Shown here: positions 2,397-49,902 of the stretch, in pieces
How positions within the stretch are numbered: the stretch's first letter is position 1
Layout: each line of letters begins with the position of its first letter
Source of the DNA: Runella sp. SP2
GTDB taxonomy: Bacteria; Bacteroidota; Bacteroidia; Cytophagales; Spirosomataceae
Direction: 5' to 3'
DNA: 64,000 nucleotides
NCBI RefSeq assembly: GCF_003711225.1
Contig: NZ_CP031030.1
Span: 5,879,501 to 5,943,500 of the forward strand
Program-made: the position numbers and the translations under genes
The notes under the pieces: model-generated
The model's database searches: none
Told to the model about the DNA's origin: nothing
The model's input: the letters and a program-made list of their open reading frames with translations, nothing else

Positions 2397-3619
2397 CTTC
2401 GTTCTTCCCTTCGTGATTTGTTGAGTTGGCTAATGGCGTCTTTGGCTTCTTTGACTTGGCTCGATTTTTTCTCCCCTCGGTCTATCACCGTTTTGTAATA
2501 CTCCCTCGCCGCTTCGTAGTCTTTTTCAGTTTCCGACATTTTTCCCAAGGCAATCAACGACGACAAATAATAGCCCGACGTAAACGCTTTGGCTTGAATT
2601 GAATAATTGACAGCCTGCAAGTAATACTCCTTGGCTTTTGGAATATCGCGGTGATAGTTGTTGTAATAATACGCCAAAACGTAGGCCGCATTTCGCCCGC
2701 TTACGGCTTCATATCCCGCCATCCCTTTGTCTATTTTGGTCAAAATACTCCTTGCGGCTTTTTCCGCTTCGGCGGTATTTCCCCGCACAAAAGCTGAGCG
2801 GAGGTAATAGCGTTCAAAATAGGGGTTGTCGGGGTAGGTTTCCCACGAGTATTTGGCCAAATCATACGCTTTGGCGTATTGATTTTCGTAGCTGTAAATC
2901 TGCAGTAAGAAATACCGTGCTTCGGTTCGGGTGTAAAAAGCGTTGTTTCCTACTTTTTCAAGTTGCTGAATACCAAGCTGTTTGTTGCCTTTAGGGAAAA
3001 GCCAAAGGATAGGTTTAAGCAACGGATAGTTGTCTGGAATCCATTGGGCAAAGTAATTGAACAACCCATCTCCAAACAGTAATTCGGGACTCAATTCACT
3101 TTTTCCTTCACATTTTTCCATGTATTTCAAGGCATTCTTCCCCGCAAAAGTCGCCCGCGACCAGTGTTTCCGTTCCGAGTGAATCCGTCCTTTGAACGCA
3201 TACGCTGCGGCTAAGAAGAACGAAGGCTCGATTTTGTTTTCGCGCGCATCATACAGTTTTTCTGCCAACGTAATGCAAGTATCCATCAAGGCCAAGCAGC
3301 GGTCGTCGTAGCGAGTGTCTTCGGTGTTGGGCACAATTTTCCACCACTCGGCCAACCCCATCAAAAAATAGGGCATGGGGTGGTAGGGATAGCGGTAACG
3401 CAACCAACGAAATTCGGCGTCGGCTTCGGCAAATTTGAAGTTATAAAGTTTGTTAATGGCCTCAGTAGCTTCGATTTGTACGCCTGGATTGGAGAGCAAC
3501 ATATCGTACTTGCCATCAAAGTCGGAGGAGGCATAAAGTTGGGCATTGGCGGTAGTCGTACCTAAAAGTACCCAGCCAATGATACCGAATATCCAATATT
3601 TTAAGATGTTCTTTTTCAT
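2381..3619 (-). CDS. Exported TPR-repeat protein, unknown function
   Basis: 412 residues with a signal peptide (MKKNILKYWIFGIIGWVLLG, cleavage after TTANA near residue 26). The body is helical with TPR-like motifs: one around residues 55-95 (AINKLYNFKFAEADAEFRWL), others at 125-160 and 225-390 (YSYENQYAKAYDLAKYSWET, EKDYEAAREYYKTVIDRGEK). The C-terminal 15 residues are extremely basic (SRREERRKRRD). Such proteins are usually periplasmic scaffolds; the partner is not visible. It stands alone on the minus strand, divergent from hpt. Confidence 0.8.
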   Translation of the reverse strand: MKKNILKYWIFGIIGWVLLGTTTANAQLYASSDFDGKYDMLLSNPGVQIEATEAINKLYNFKFAEADAEFRWLRYRYPYHPMPYFLMGLAEWWKIVPNTEDTRYDDRCLALMDTCITLAEKLYDARENKIEPSFFLAAAYAFKGRIHSERKHWSRATFAGKNALKYMEKCEGKSELSPELLFGDGLFNYFAQWIPDNYPLLKPILWLFPKGNKQLGIQQLEKVGNNAFYTRTEARYFLLQIYSYENQYAKAYDLAKYSWETYPDNPYFERYYLRSAFVRGNTAEAEKAARSILTKIDKGMAGYEAVSGRNAAYVLAYYYNNYHRDIPKAKEYYLQAVNYSIQAKAFTSGYYLSSLIALGKMSETEKDYEAAREYYKTVIDRGEKKSSQVKEAKDAISQLNKSRREERRKRRD

Positions 3620-46360: not shown

Positions 46361-47563
46361 AGTAACCCATAACTTTTGAGAGACGCGGCCTCGGTCAGGC
46401 GTTTGGTACGTCATAAAATAAAGCCCATTTTCCAGGATTTTATGAGGCCGAATCGTAAGGCTATTGTTAGAAGTTGCCTGAATATCAAACGGAATTTCTT
46501 GTCCCAACATCGTTATCAGTCGCAAACGGTCAAGCTCAAGATTATCAAACTGTAGGCGGACACTGCTCCCATCCGATGGGTTTGGATAAATAACAAACTG
46601 CGTTGCCTCGGCCTGAGGACTAACAGCTATAATTTTTGAATAATCCGACGTGCCGTCTTTGTCCACTTGCTTGAGTCGGTAATAATTGACGCCAGGGAGT
46701 GGTGCTTCATCCAAAAAGCTGTAATTAATAACTTGACGAGAGTCGCCTGCGGAGGTGAGTTTCCCAATCGTAGCAAATTCTTTTAAATCGGTACTTCGCT
46801 CCACGTTGAAATGGCTACTGTTGATTTCGAGCGCTGTTGCCCAAGAAAGTCGTACCCGTTCAGCTTCCGCTTTTCCTCGAAAATACATCAATTGTACAGG
46901 GACAATATTTGACCACGAAAGACTTGACAAGAAGATACTTTGGGTACTAAGTGCACCGTTTCTTGCGTCACTTCCACTGCCATAGGTGAGTGTAAAACGT
47001 TTTACGCCGCTATTACGAAAAGTGACGGTTGCACGGGTTGTATCTAAGGGGTCGGTATTGAAACCAGATAATACTTTAATGTGTGATGCTGTCCCGTTAG
47101 ACAAAAAGGCAGTATTGGGGTTATAAGTAATTGTGGGTAAAATCCCCGCATTTTTGTCATCGTAAGCTTCAATAGCCACGCGATCTTGGTAATTACTAAA
47201 GCTCAACTCACGGTCAATTCCCAATAAAGCAAACGATAAGTTTGTGACGGGGTCGCTAAAAGTGAAAGAAATCGTGACGACCTGCGTACGGCTTCCGAGG
47301 TTCATACTCAACCACAGCCCCCGCGAGTCACTACGTGGAGTATTATTGTTAAAACGGTTGATAGCTCCTTGAATGTTGGCTGTTACGGTCACGGCAGGTG
47401 TACCTAAGTTGGTAAAAGTATGTGACAATGACCCGTCGGGAAGCCATTTGGTGGTTTCTGATTCCGACGTTAGGTCAACAAAGCCCTGCCCGAACGAAAG
47501 TTGAGTGCAAAGTACCGCCAACAAAATCAATAAACCCCTCATAAATCGTAAACAGTTACACAT
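46355..47563 (-). CDS. Secreted protein with T9SS type A sorting domain
   Basis: 402 residues (395 if the ATG at 47542 is used, which gives the cleaner signal peptide MRGLLILLAVLCTQLSFGQ). Residues 30-220 are a beta-rich region of unknown kind with a weak repeat of VTISFTF-type strands. A fibronectin-like segment follows (VRLSWATALEINSSHFNVER), and the last 80 residues are the T9SS sorting domain (FVIYPNPSDGSSVRLQFDNL ... MTYQTPDRGRVSQKLWVTR). It is exported by the Sec system and then by T9SS to the surface or medium. Function unknown; it probably has a cell-surface or adhesive role. Confidence 0.88.
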   Translation of the reverse strand: MCNCLRFMRGLLILLAVLCTQLSFGQGFVDLTSESETTKWLPDGSLSHTFTNLGTPAVTVTANIQGAINRFNNNTPRSDSRGLWLSMNLGSRTQVVTISFTFSDPVTNLSFALLGIDRELSFSNYQDRVAIEAYDDKNAGILPTITYNPNTAFLSNGTASHIKVLSGFNTDPLDTTRATVTFRNSGVKRFTLTYGSGSDARNGALSTQSIFLSSLSWSNIVPVQLMYFRGKAEAERVRLSWATALEINSSHFNVERSTDLKEFATIGKLTSAGDSRQVINYSFLDEAPLPGVNYYRLKQVDKDGTSDYSKIIAVSPQAEATQFVIYPNPSDGSSVRLQFDNLELDRLRLITMLGQEIPFDIQATSNNSLTIRPHKILENGLYFMTYQTPDRGRVSQKLWVTR

Positions 47564-47652
47564 TCTCGTTGTTATTTTGATTCTACAAAATATATACGTA
47601 AGAAATGAAACAAAGATAGTTAAACTTTGTAAAAAAGTTACATTAAGCTTTC

Positions 47653-49098
47653 TTACAATTCATTAGCAAACTCAATTGCCTTTCTCAAGGCGGCTAGTTT
47701 GTTATTCACTTCTTGCATTTCAGAGGCAATATTTGACTTGGCTACAACTCCCATGCCAGCTTGGTAAAACAACGTATTGTTTTTACTCAAAAATGTACGA
47801 ATCGTAATGCAGTGGTTGAAGTCGCCGTTGAAACTAATATGCCCAAGTGCGCCACCATAAATGCTACGATTGGTACGTTCGAGTCGATTAATGATGGTCA
47901 TGGCGTTGTGTTTGGGTGCTCCCGAAAGCGTTCCTGCGGGGAATGTATCTGCCACAAGTTGAAGCGGGTTTACTCCTTCACTCATCTTGCCTGTTACTTT
48001 CGAGACAAGGTGAATGACGTGCGAGAAAAACTGAGCTTCTTTGTAGGTTTCTACTTTTACCACGTCGCAGCTACGACTCAAATCATTACGCGCAAGGTCA
48101 ACGAGCATCACGTGTTCGGCCGTTTCTTTGGGGTCAGCGGCGAGTTGACGGGCTAGTTCGGCGTCTTTTTCGTCGTCGCCAGTGCGGCGGAATGTTCCTG
48201 CAATGGGGTGGATTTCGGCGTGGCCGTTTTTGATAAAGATTTGTTTCTCGGGCGACGAACCAAACACTTTGTATCCGCCAAAATCGAAGAAAAACAAGTA
48301 GGGTGAAGGGTTCACCGAACGCAAAGCACGGTAAACGTTGAACTCGTCACCTTCAAATTTTTTGCTGAACCTTCTTGATGGAACAATCTGAAAAACGTCG
48401 CCGCGCAAGCAGTGGTTGATGCATTGTTGGATGATACCCTCCATTTCGGGGTCGGTTACGTTGCTCTGCTCACTTTCTTGGGCTTTAAAGCGGAATGTAG
48501 CCATTTTTGGCGCTTTTACAATCATTTCGAGCGAGTCTAAGTCCATACCCATCGACTTGCTATGATTCGCGTCGTCGCGCGTTACGCCGTAATCGTGTTC
48601 AAAAAGATATACTTCGTCTTTGAAGTGGTTGAAGGCAATTACAAATCGATATACCCGATAAACCATTTGCGGAATGGCATTGTCAGGGGTTTTTTCTTGA
48701 ATCTCAATGTCTTCAAAATACTCAACCGAATCGTACGTAATATGCCCAAACAAACCTCCATTGATAAAAGGGTGCTCGTTTTTAGGCGCGTCGAAGCGGT
48801 GGATAAAATCATGCAACTTTTGCATGGCCTGTTTACGATAAGGCAAAGGAAATGTTTCTTCACTTCCGTCAGGAAAGGTTTGAGTAACAACATCTTCGTC
48901 GATGACAAAAGAAGCAACGGGGTCGCAAGCGATGACGCTAAAGCCGTGTTCCATGCCGTGATACTCCGCGCTTTCGAGCATGACAGTGTAAGGAAACTTA
49001 TCGCGAAGTTTGAGATAAACGCCCACGGGCGTAAGCATGTCACCTAGCAATTTTCTGCTTTGGGTACTGATTTTGAAGGTAGTGTCGGTGGTTGTCAT
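47653..49098 (-). CDS. trpE: Anthranilate synthase component I
   Basis: 481 residues. TrpE makes anthranilate from chorismate, with ammonia supplied by TrpG, the first step of tryptophan synthesis. The N-terminal part carries the feedback-inhibition motif as MLESAE (about residue 40), matching the LLES site of allosteric TrpE. The chorismate-binding domain (about 205-470) has IVPSRRFSKKF, the PSPYLFFFDFGG segment, HPIAGTFRRTGDDEKDAELA, and FPAGTLSGAPKHNAM. No trpG or other trp gene follows, so trpE stands alone here. It is preceded by a leader peptide and attenuator (49129-49251), so Trp controls both synthesis and activity. Confidence 0.97.
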   Translation of the reverse strand: MTTTDTTFKISTQSRKLLGDMLTPVGVYLKLRDKFPYTVMLESAEYHGMEHGFSVIACDPVASFVIDEDVVTQTFPDGSEETFPLPYRKQAMQKLHDFIHRFDAPKNEHPFINGGLFGHITYDSVEYFEDIEIQEKTPDNAIPQMVYRVYRFVIAFNHFKDEVYLFEHDYGVTRDDANHSKSMGMDLDSLEMIVKAPKMATFRFKAQESEQSNVTDPEMEGIIQQCINHCLRGDVFQIVPSRRFSKKFEGDEFNVYRALRSVNPSPYLFFFDFGGYKVFGSSPEKQIFIKNGHAEIHPIAGTFRRTGDDEKDAELARQLAADPKETAEHVMLVDLARNDLSRSCDVVKVETYKEAQFFSHVIHLVSKVTGKMSEGVNPLQLVADTFPAGTLSGAPKHNAMTIINRLERTNRSIYGGALGHISFNGDFNHCITIRTFLSKNNTLFYQAGMGVVAKSNIASEMQEVNNKLAALRKAIEFANEL

Positions 49099-49128
49099 GT
49101 ATCATTTGAGATTGAGGTGCATAAAAAT

Positions 49129-49163
49129 AAAAAGCCCGCTGTTTGATGAACAGCGGGCTTTTT
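49129..49163 (-). terminator. trpE attenuator terminator
   Basis: Minus-strand stem AAAAAGCCCGCTGTT (49163-49149) / AACAGCGGGCTTTTT (49143-49129), loop CATCA, then TTTTTATTTTT. It lies 30 bases before the trpE ATG. Its left arm and loop contain CTGTTCATC (49153-49145), which is exactly complementary to GATGAACAG (49199-49191), the segment spanning the leader stop codon. The terminator and this 9-bp alternative pairing exclude each other. Confidence 0.93.
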
Positions 49164-49194
49164 TTGGTAAAAAAGTGAGCATAGTGCTATCTGT

Positions 49195-49251
49195 TCATCT
49201 CGGAAAAGAAGAACGCCACCACCAGCTTGTATTTTTTACGTTTGGATTCAT
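49195..49251 (-). CDS. trpL: trp leader peptide with three consecutive Trp
   Basis: 18-codon ORF: MNPNVKNTSWWWRSSFPR, then TGA. The three TGG codons (49216-49224) are residues 10-12. Trp is about 1% of proteins, so a WWW run in the one short ORF in front of trpE's terminator is very unlikely by chance. A ribosome stalled there covers up to about the 50th base of the ORF, leaving the antiterminator segment (bases 53-61) free; a ribosome at the stop (55-57) covers it, so the terminator forms. The ATG lies 4 bases after the -7 promoter element, so the transcript may be leaderless. No Shine-Dalgarno is seen. Confidence 0.9.
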   Translation of the reverse strand: MNPNVKNTSWWWRSSFPR

Positions 49252-49255
49252 GTCA

Positions 49256-49286
49256 CAAAAGTACAATCGTGTTTTTAAAAACCAAA
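49256..49286 (-). promoter_or_regulatory. Promoter of trpL-trpE
   Basis: Minus strand: TTTG (49286-49283), 19 bases, TACTTTTG (49263-49256), a full match to TTTG-N19-TAnnTTTG. Transcription would begin at or very near the leader ATG at 49251. Confidence 0.88.
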
Positions 49287-49314
49287 TTTTTATTTTGAGA
49301 GGTGTTGAGAACCC

Positions 49315-49902
49315 TTATTTTTTCTTGTAGAAGTTATAGATGACCGATACCTGTAACGTGCGGTTGTAGAGCGACTCGGTGGAAGTGCTCGAAATATTGG
49401 TAAAACCGTGTACGTAGCGAAGGTTGAGGCTAAAGTCTTCGGCCATGTCCATAAAATCAAAGCGAAGCCCAGAGCCTAAACTAAACTCATTTTTACGAAG
49501 GGGAACAATCGTGTTTGGGTTATGAAGCAAGTAGCTAATTTCGGGAGCTACTTCCAACGTAAGACCTTCGGTGATGGTATAGCCCACCGTTGGTACAAAA
49601 CTTCCGTAGTTAAAGTTATTGCGAACTACCTGAAACTCACCTTTAAACGTTCCTCCGCGTACAGAAAGCTGTACTTCTGGCTGGAATACCCATTTTCTAT
49701 CGGGCGTACGATAACGAAAAAAGACGCCCAAATTAGGGTGTGATTGGCGTTTGAGGCTATAAATAAAGTTTGGAGAATAGGTACTTCGCGCAATGTTCAA
49801 ACCTGCCTTTACCCCAAAATGTGGTTTAAGATAGAGTGTTTGGGCCGAAGCACCGAAGGTTAAAAACGCGAAAAAAAGTAATAATTTGTGTTTCAAATTC
49901 AT
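49315..49902 (-). CDS. PorT-like outer membrane beta-barrel protein
   Basis: 195 residues with signal peptide MNLKHKLLLFFAFLTFGASA. The mature start HFGVKAGLNIARSTYSPNFI and the C-terminal strand LQVSVIYNFYKKK fit a PorT-like 8-strand barrel. Transcription runs towards trpE but the leader region with its own promoter separates them. Role unknown. Confidence 0.85.
   Translation of the reverse strand: MNLKHKLLLFFAFLTFGASAQTLYLKPHFGVKAGLNIARSTYSPNFIYSLKRQSHPNLGVFFRYRTPDRKWVFQPEVQLSVRGGTFKGEFQVVRNNFNYGSFVPTVGYTITEGLTLEVAPEISYLLHNPNTIVPLRKNEFSLGSGLRFDFMDMAEDFSLNLRYVHGFTNISSTSTESLYNRTLQVSVIYNFYKKK

Follow-up and report, generated by a model that had tools for sequence, protein, structure and literature searches.

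How is the trpE gene of Runella sp. SP2 controlled? In the window analyzed here, a stretch of 64,000 nucleotides, trpE (anthranilate synthase component I) lies on the minus strand at positions 47653 to 49098. Its product exceeds the cut-off of the Chorismate_bind model, and its best NCBIfam match is TIGR00564 (trpE_most) at 422.4 bits, below the cut-off of that model (517.7). A first reading made from the letters of this DNA (the sequence-only reading) proposed that a ribosome-mediated attenuator precedes the gene. I examined by computation the parts of this putative attenuator, their spacing and conservation, base pair changes on both sides of the pairing, and the alternative folds. Judging from the sequence, it is very likely that a ribosome-mediated trp transcription attenuator controls trpE.

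All of the claimed parts, namely the promoter, the ORF, the Trp codons, the pairing segments, the terminator, the T-run, and trpE, were found base for base at their places on the minus strand. A Bacteroidota-type promoter (49256 to 49286) was read from the sequence as TTTG (49286-49283), 19 nucleotides, and TACTTTTG (49263-49256). The leader ORF trpL, MNPNVKNTSWWWRSSFPR (49195 to 49251), has 18 codons and ends with a TGA stop codon at 49197-49195. Its three consecutive Trp codons, TGG TGG TGG (49216 to 49224), form the putative stall site. Pairing tests and folding located segment 2, GATGAACAG (49191 to 49199), across the leader stop codon, and its antiterminator partner, segment 3, CTGTTCATC (49145 to 49153), within the left arm and loop of the terminator. 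The terminator hairpin (segments 3:4; 49129 to 49163), detected by folding and by a terminator scan, has 15 pairs and a folding energy of -23.8 kcal/mol by itself. Its T-rich tail was read from the sequence (49121 to 49133), and the trpE ATG lies 22 nucleotides downstream of this tail. The hairpin is the strongest of nine terminator-like matches in the region from 47400 to 49400, while shuffled sequences average 2.8 matches. The leader as a whole folds with a z-score of -6.2, and none of 200 shuffles folded equally well. When the arrangement was searched as a pattern in the whole Runella genome, two matches were obtained, the trpE locus and C1:2880969. The latter was judged to be a chance match, since a reversed control pattern likewise matches once. 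A scan of the window with Rfam models at gathering scores detected four tRNAs and nothing else.

Where does the transcript start? Only four nucleotides separate TACTTTTG from the leader ATG (49251). The TAnnTTTG box ends exactly four nucleotides 5′ of the leader ATG in all 13 Runella loci, and the same exact gap was found in some loci of other genera. Dyadobacter, unlike Runella, has tens of nucleotides between the box and the ATG. More generally, 134 of 156 leaders have a perfect TAnnTTTG within 130 nucleotides of the leader ATG, against 229 of 3140 shuffles. Given the usual distance from a TAnnTTTG box to the transcription start site, the four-nucleotide gap predicts a 5′ UTR of about 0 to 2 nucleotides. 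Thus, the Runella trpL transcript is probably leaderless, with a predicted start at or adjoining the trpL ATG. According to the 5′ UTR data in PMC7366714, only about 3.7% of the 5′ UTRs of B. thetaiotaomicron are shorter than 10 nucleotides.

Might the hairpin merely terminate the transcript of the upstream gene, with the short ORF being accidental? An outer-membrane gene on the same strand (49315-49902) ends at 49315, and the hairpin is the only strong terminator detected between this gene and trpE, as this explanation would have it. However, a promoter and an ORF lie between that gene and the hairpin, and the ORF, the Trp run, and the alternative pairing are conserved even with a different upstream neighbor, a tRNA gene in Larkinella. 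I regard a plain upstream terminator as scarcely credible. In the Larkinella loci, the tRNA gene lies directly upstream of the trp leader. It is a tRNA-Pro(CGG) gene in L098 and L099. In L100, a 5S rRNA gene is followed by a tRNA detected by Rfam, and L101 to L104 share the sequence start of L100.

Is the attenuator conserved in the genus? TrpE was found in all 13 Runella genomes, including that of the window, and the leader is present in all of them. The tandem Trp codons, the alternative pairing, and the terminator are also retained in 13 of 13, with three Trp codons in 11 genomes and two in the other two. Loss of the Trp run or of the alternative pairing in close relatives, which the sequence-only reading had named as evidence against itself, was not seen. 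The antiterminator pairs were counted on an alignment of 12 distinct Runella rows (A1), where 94.4% of the cells are paired and five cells are changed on both sides. None of 500 shuffles was as high in either count, and slid registers reached at most 52.8% paired. Three Runella have a G-C pair in place of an A-U pair of the antiterminator, two of which also have an A-U pair in place of a G-C pair, while the ninth (last) pair is mismatched in a subgroup of six. On the other hand, only two pairs are doubly changed within the genus, a number reached by 137 of 500 shuffles, which counts against the pairing.

Beyond the genus, 156 leaders in 34 clusters were compared. Since a 40-sequence alignment (A2) shifts segment 2 by one base between genera, pairs were not counted on A2 and a permutation test was used instead. 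Segments 2 and 3 of the same locus pair with a mean of -14.3 kcal/mol, against -11.0 kcal/mol when partners are swapped, a difference reached in none of 10000 permutations over the 34 clusters. In 30 of the 34 clusters, segment 2 starts 9 to 23 nucleotides past the last Trp codon. Counting against the antiterminator, comparison with shuffles of the same locus gave p <= 0.05 in no more than 16 of the 34 clusters, and in only seven was the pairing stronger than that with 95% of foreign partners. The compensating pairing looked for in relatives is supported by the both-sided changes in Runella and by the advantage of own over swapped partners. The N-terminal part of the leader peptide differs between genera.

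Is segment 2 protected when it is not in use? A protector partner of segment 2 was found in segment 1, CGTTCTTC (49208 to 49215, minus strand), directly after the Trp codons. An earlier test of the 1:2 duplex was weak, reaching significance in just 4 of the 34 clusters, with p = 0.405 at the Runella locus. A hairpin test, which came after it and omits three of the 34 clusters whose segment 2 is more than 30 nucleotides away, gave p <= 0.05 in 18 of 31 clusters, with p = 0.040 at the Runella locus. The mean z-score was -1.73, against -0.02 in 93 control windows. When ribosome-free RNA ending at segment 3 was folded, segment 2 was held in an extended 1:2 structure of -21.4 kcal/mol in which the Trp codons take part. 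The protector hairpin 1:2, absent from the first description, makes this a four-segment attenuator. Alternatively, the switch might have three segments and no working protector, in which case transcription would read through both when the ribosome stalls and when the leader is untranslated, and would terminate only when a ribosome occupies the stop codon. The weak duplex test fits such a switch, and so does the simple 1:2 helix, which has only -4.1 kcal/mol against -10.2 kcal/mol for 2:3, but the 1:2 excess in the hairpin test and the extended structure of the free RNA make it unlikely. With segment 1 included, the locus has a tandem-Trp leader ORF, an intrinsic terminator, a mutually exclusive antiterminator, and a 1:2 protector, which are among the features of the ribosome-mediated trp attenuator class.

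How does the four-segment attenuator fold with a ribosome on it? Ribosome footprints, whose edge lies 15 nucleotides past the P site, were imposed on Runella RNA ending at segment 3. With the A site on Trp10, Trp11, or Trp12, a 2:3 helix of nine pairs forms, while it does not form with the A site on the stop codon. The two RNA states thus differ as the sequence-only reading had anticipated. The same 2:3 helix also forms with the A site on Arg13, directly after the Trp run, indicating that the Trp specificity of the switch does not come from the stall-position step by itself. In full-length RNA, the terminator is the minimum in both footprint states, even with the stalled ribosome. Thus, the choice must be kinetic and made as the RNA emerges.

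The response to Trp and the order of events during transcription would then be as follows. RNA polymerase would begin at or beside the trpL ATG. Under a shortage of charged tRNA-Trp, the leading ribosome would stall on the Trp run and cover segment 1, leaving segment 2 (nucleotides 53 to 61 of the RNA) free to capture segment 3 as it emerges. The 2:3 pairing would block the terminator, and trpE would be transcribed. With an ample supply of charged tRNA-Trp, the ribosome would proceed to the stop codon and cover segment 2, and the 3:4 terminator would end transcription. If the leader is not translated, segment 1 would hold segment 2, making termination the default. The original proposal that stalling frees GATGAACAG and finishing the peptide covers it agrees with the conservation, the both-sided changes, the spacing, and the footprint folding, although the 1:2 protector was missing from that account.

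Does the attenuator control trpE alone? The trpG-type gene and trpD, trpC, trpF, and trpB of Runella are grouped about 1.3 Mb away from trpE, while trpA was not located. A search for leaders with a Trp pair before trpG and before hemC/trpD of Runella detected none. The gene after trpE starts at 47563 on the same strand and encodes a T9SS sorting tail, and the terminator scan from 47400 to 49400 found no strong terminator between the two genes. Read-through from trpE into this gene could occur. The proposed control of trpE alone thus holds with respect to the located trp genes, but trpA was not among these and the next gene may be read through.

Are such leaders common in the phylum? Tandem Trp codons in a short ORF no more than 400 nucleotides upstream of trpE were found at 205 of 245 loci, while such an ORF occurred in 26 of 2450 shuffles and on 1 of the 245 opposite strands. 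The 245 loci comprise 165 loci and 80 added later, each with at least 400 nucleotides upstream, and some genomes were counted twice. The short ORFs with tandem TGG looked for upstream of homologous trpE genes are therefore widespread but not universal. Counting against, 26 of the 80 loci added later have no WW or WxW leader in the 400 nucleotides upstream of trpE. Two of these 26, L215 and L233, have one farther upstream, and the rest include all eight f35 loci, all four f30 loci, and some loci of families f4, f6, f13, f20, and others. Within the family, loci were taken from the first-listed 30 of 99 TrpE-bearing genomes, and others of the family were seen only among 80 named trpE loci. Of these 80, the start is intact in 79, and each of the 79 has a leader within 500 nucleotides upstream that begins with ATG and contains tandem Trp codons. 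They include loci of Runella, Dyadobacter, Telluribacter, Persicitalea, Larkinella, and Hymenobacter. Of 33 places first without a locus, 32 were examined (29 fetched and three otherwise, with G171 partial), and 51 of 72 in a second set were fetched, the remaining 21 being mostly f35.

A complete leader was not called at 16 of 173 loci (L001 was dropped, being the same place as L004). The start is missing in L097, L135 is too short, and L022 has a TTG start. In L020 and L021, the leader was seen and the script did not find a terminator. No leader was seen at L024, L026, L028, L127, L136, and L137. Three of these (L024, L026, and L028) are from species of genus g28 and lack a tandem-Trp leader in the 500 nucleotides before trpE, while three other species of the same genus (L019, L023, and L029) have one; the difference may reflect natural loss or gene rearrangement. 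By eye, single-Trp leaders were read in L132, L138, and L140, while L144 and L159 have leaders with WRW or WLW. The leaders of L132, L140, L144, and L159 still precede a terminator and are putative degenerate sensors. Minimal leaders with Trp at codons 2 to 5 (L121, L123, L128, and L139) were rejected, because each has an in-frame ATG 21 to 24 nucleotides farther upstream.

Some lineages have variant forms. In L138 (genome G159, about 2900-3240, minus strand), an apparent one-Trp leader, MNTIQKYFVATWQGNPTDCKQAAM, read by eye, is accompanied by a terminator, and trpE is separated from both by a tandem pair of tRNA-Trp(CCA) genes (3092-3021 and 2992-2921). Thus, synthesis of the sensed tRNA may itself be subject to the attenuator that senses it. 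A DNA search, which detects only similar sequences, yielded just these two copies of the tRNA-Trp in G159 and no copy in any of four other genomes. In f34, a family in another class of the phylum, 11 loci (L171, L172, L174, L175, L218, L220, L221, L229, L230, L240, and L247) have Trp leaders. Segment 2 pairs with the 5′ arm of the terminator at p <= 0.05 in none of the 11, and with the loop and the 3′ arm in 8 of the 11, with up to 12 pairs, in a test designed after the trend was already seen in the data. As judged from these sequences, f34 has a putative turned-round attenuator.

The sequence-only reading considered a complete attenuator to be noteworthy in this phylum. This novelty does not hold, since a tryptophan peptide leader of Bacteroidetes, Bacteroid-trp (RF01692), was published in 2010 (PMC2864571, Table 1). 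It is described in Rfam as "Bacteroidete tryptophan peptide leader RNA", and PMC6414381 likens it to the E. coli leader and notes its conservation upstream of the F. psychrophilum trp operon. The kind is already known in Bacteroidetes, and the Runella attenuator is a further member, with trpE split from the other located trp genes. Trp leaders of Cytophagales may also have been noticed before. Bacteroid-trp occurs in the same phylum, and an RF01692 match in L149 coincides with a tandem-Trp leader upstream of trpE. In contrast, the Runella locus (L004) has no RF01692 match at E <= 10, and the gathering score of 49 bits was not reached. With stricter filters, the RF01692 cut-off was passed in none of seven Runella genomes, in 6 of the 101 genomes examined in the family, and in 8 of 118 across the phylum; it was also passed at 1 of 20 diverse leader loci. 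The E. coli trp leader has tandem Trp codons, four segments, a stop codon at segment 2, and a terminator before trpE. The Runella leader shares all of these, while its promoter is of a different type and the other located trp genes lie away from the trpE transcript. Against the Trp_leader model (RF00513), it scored 30.6 bits (E 0.015), below the gathering score of 41.

S. meliloti has a similar layout. As reported in PMC7298713, the 5′ end of its trpL is the trpL ATG, only trpE(G) of its three trp operons is attenuated, trpE(G) is a fusion, and the 14-residue trpL peptide has a role in trans. Runella is similar in the predicted start of trpL at its ATG and in having trpE apart from the other trp genes. 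They differ in that S. meliloti is of an unrelated phylum, the trpE(G) fusion and the 14-residue trans-acting peptide are features of S. meliloti, and the Runella start site is a prediction. By analogy, the terminated leader RNA or the peptide of Runella might act in trans besides acting in cis. The similar layout, in which trpL is probably leaderless and precedes a trpE that stands apart from the remaining trp genes, is consistent with this, but the N-terminal part of the peptide is variable between genera, and I consider an additional trans action very unlikely.

What does the cis-acting attenuator mean for the phylum? It is conceivable, though somewhat less probable than the contrary, that much of the GTDB Bacteroidota inherited ribosome-mediated attenuation before trpE from a common ancestor, and that such attenuation occurs in more than one class and is largely unseen by the published model. 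It would operate without a 5′ UTR in Runella and some others, and in one deep family segment 2 would capture the loop and the 3′ arm of the terminator rather than the 5′ arm. Since RF01692 represents only some of the trp leaders that occur in the phylum, annotation relying on this Rfam model misses many of them. For attenuation, a ribosome must follow RNA polymerase closely, and thus a phylum-wide attenuator would be indirect evidence of transcription-translation coupling. This evidence concerns bacteria that initiate translation mostly without Shine-Dalgarno pairing, in which the attenuator may serve as a simple reporter for coupling.
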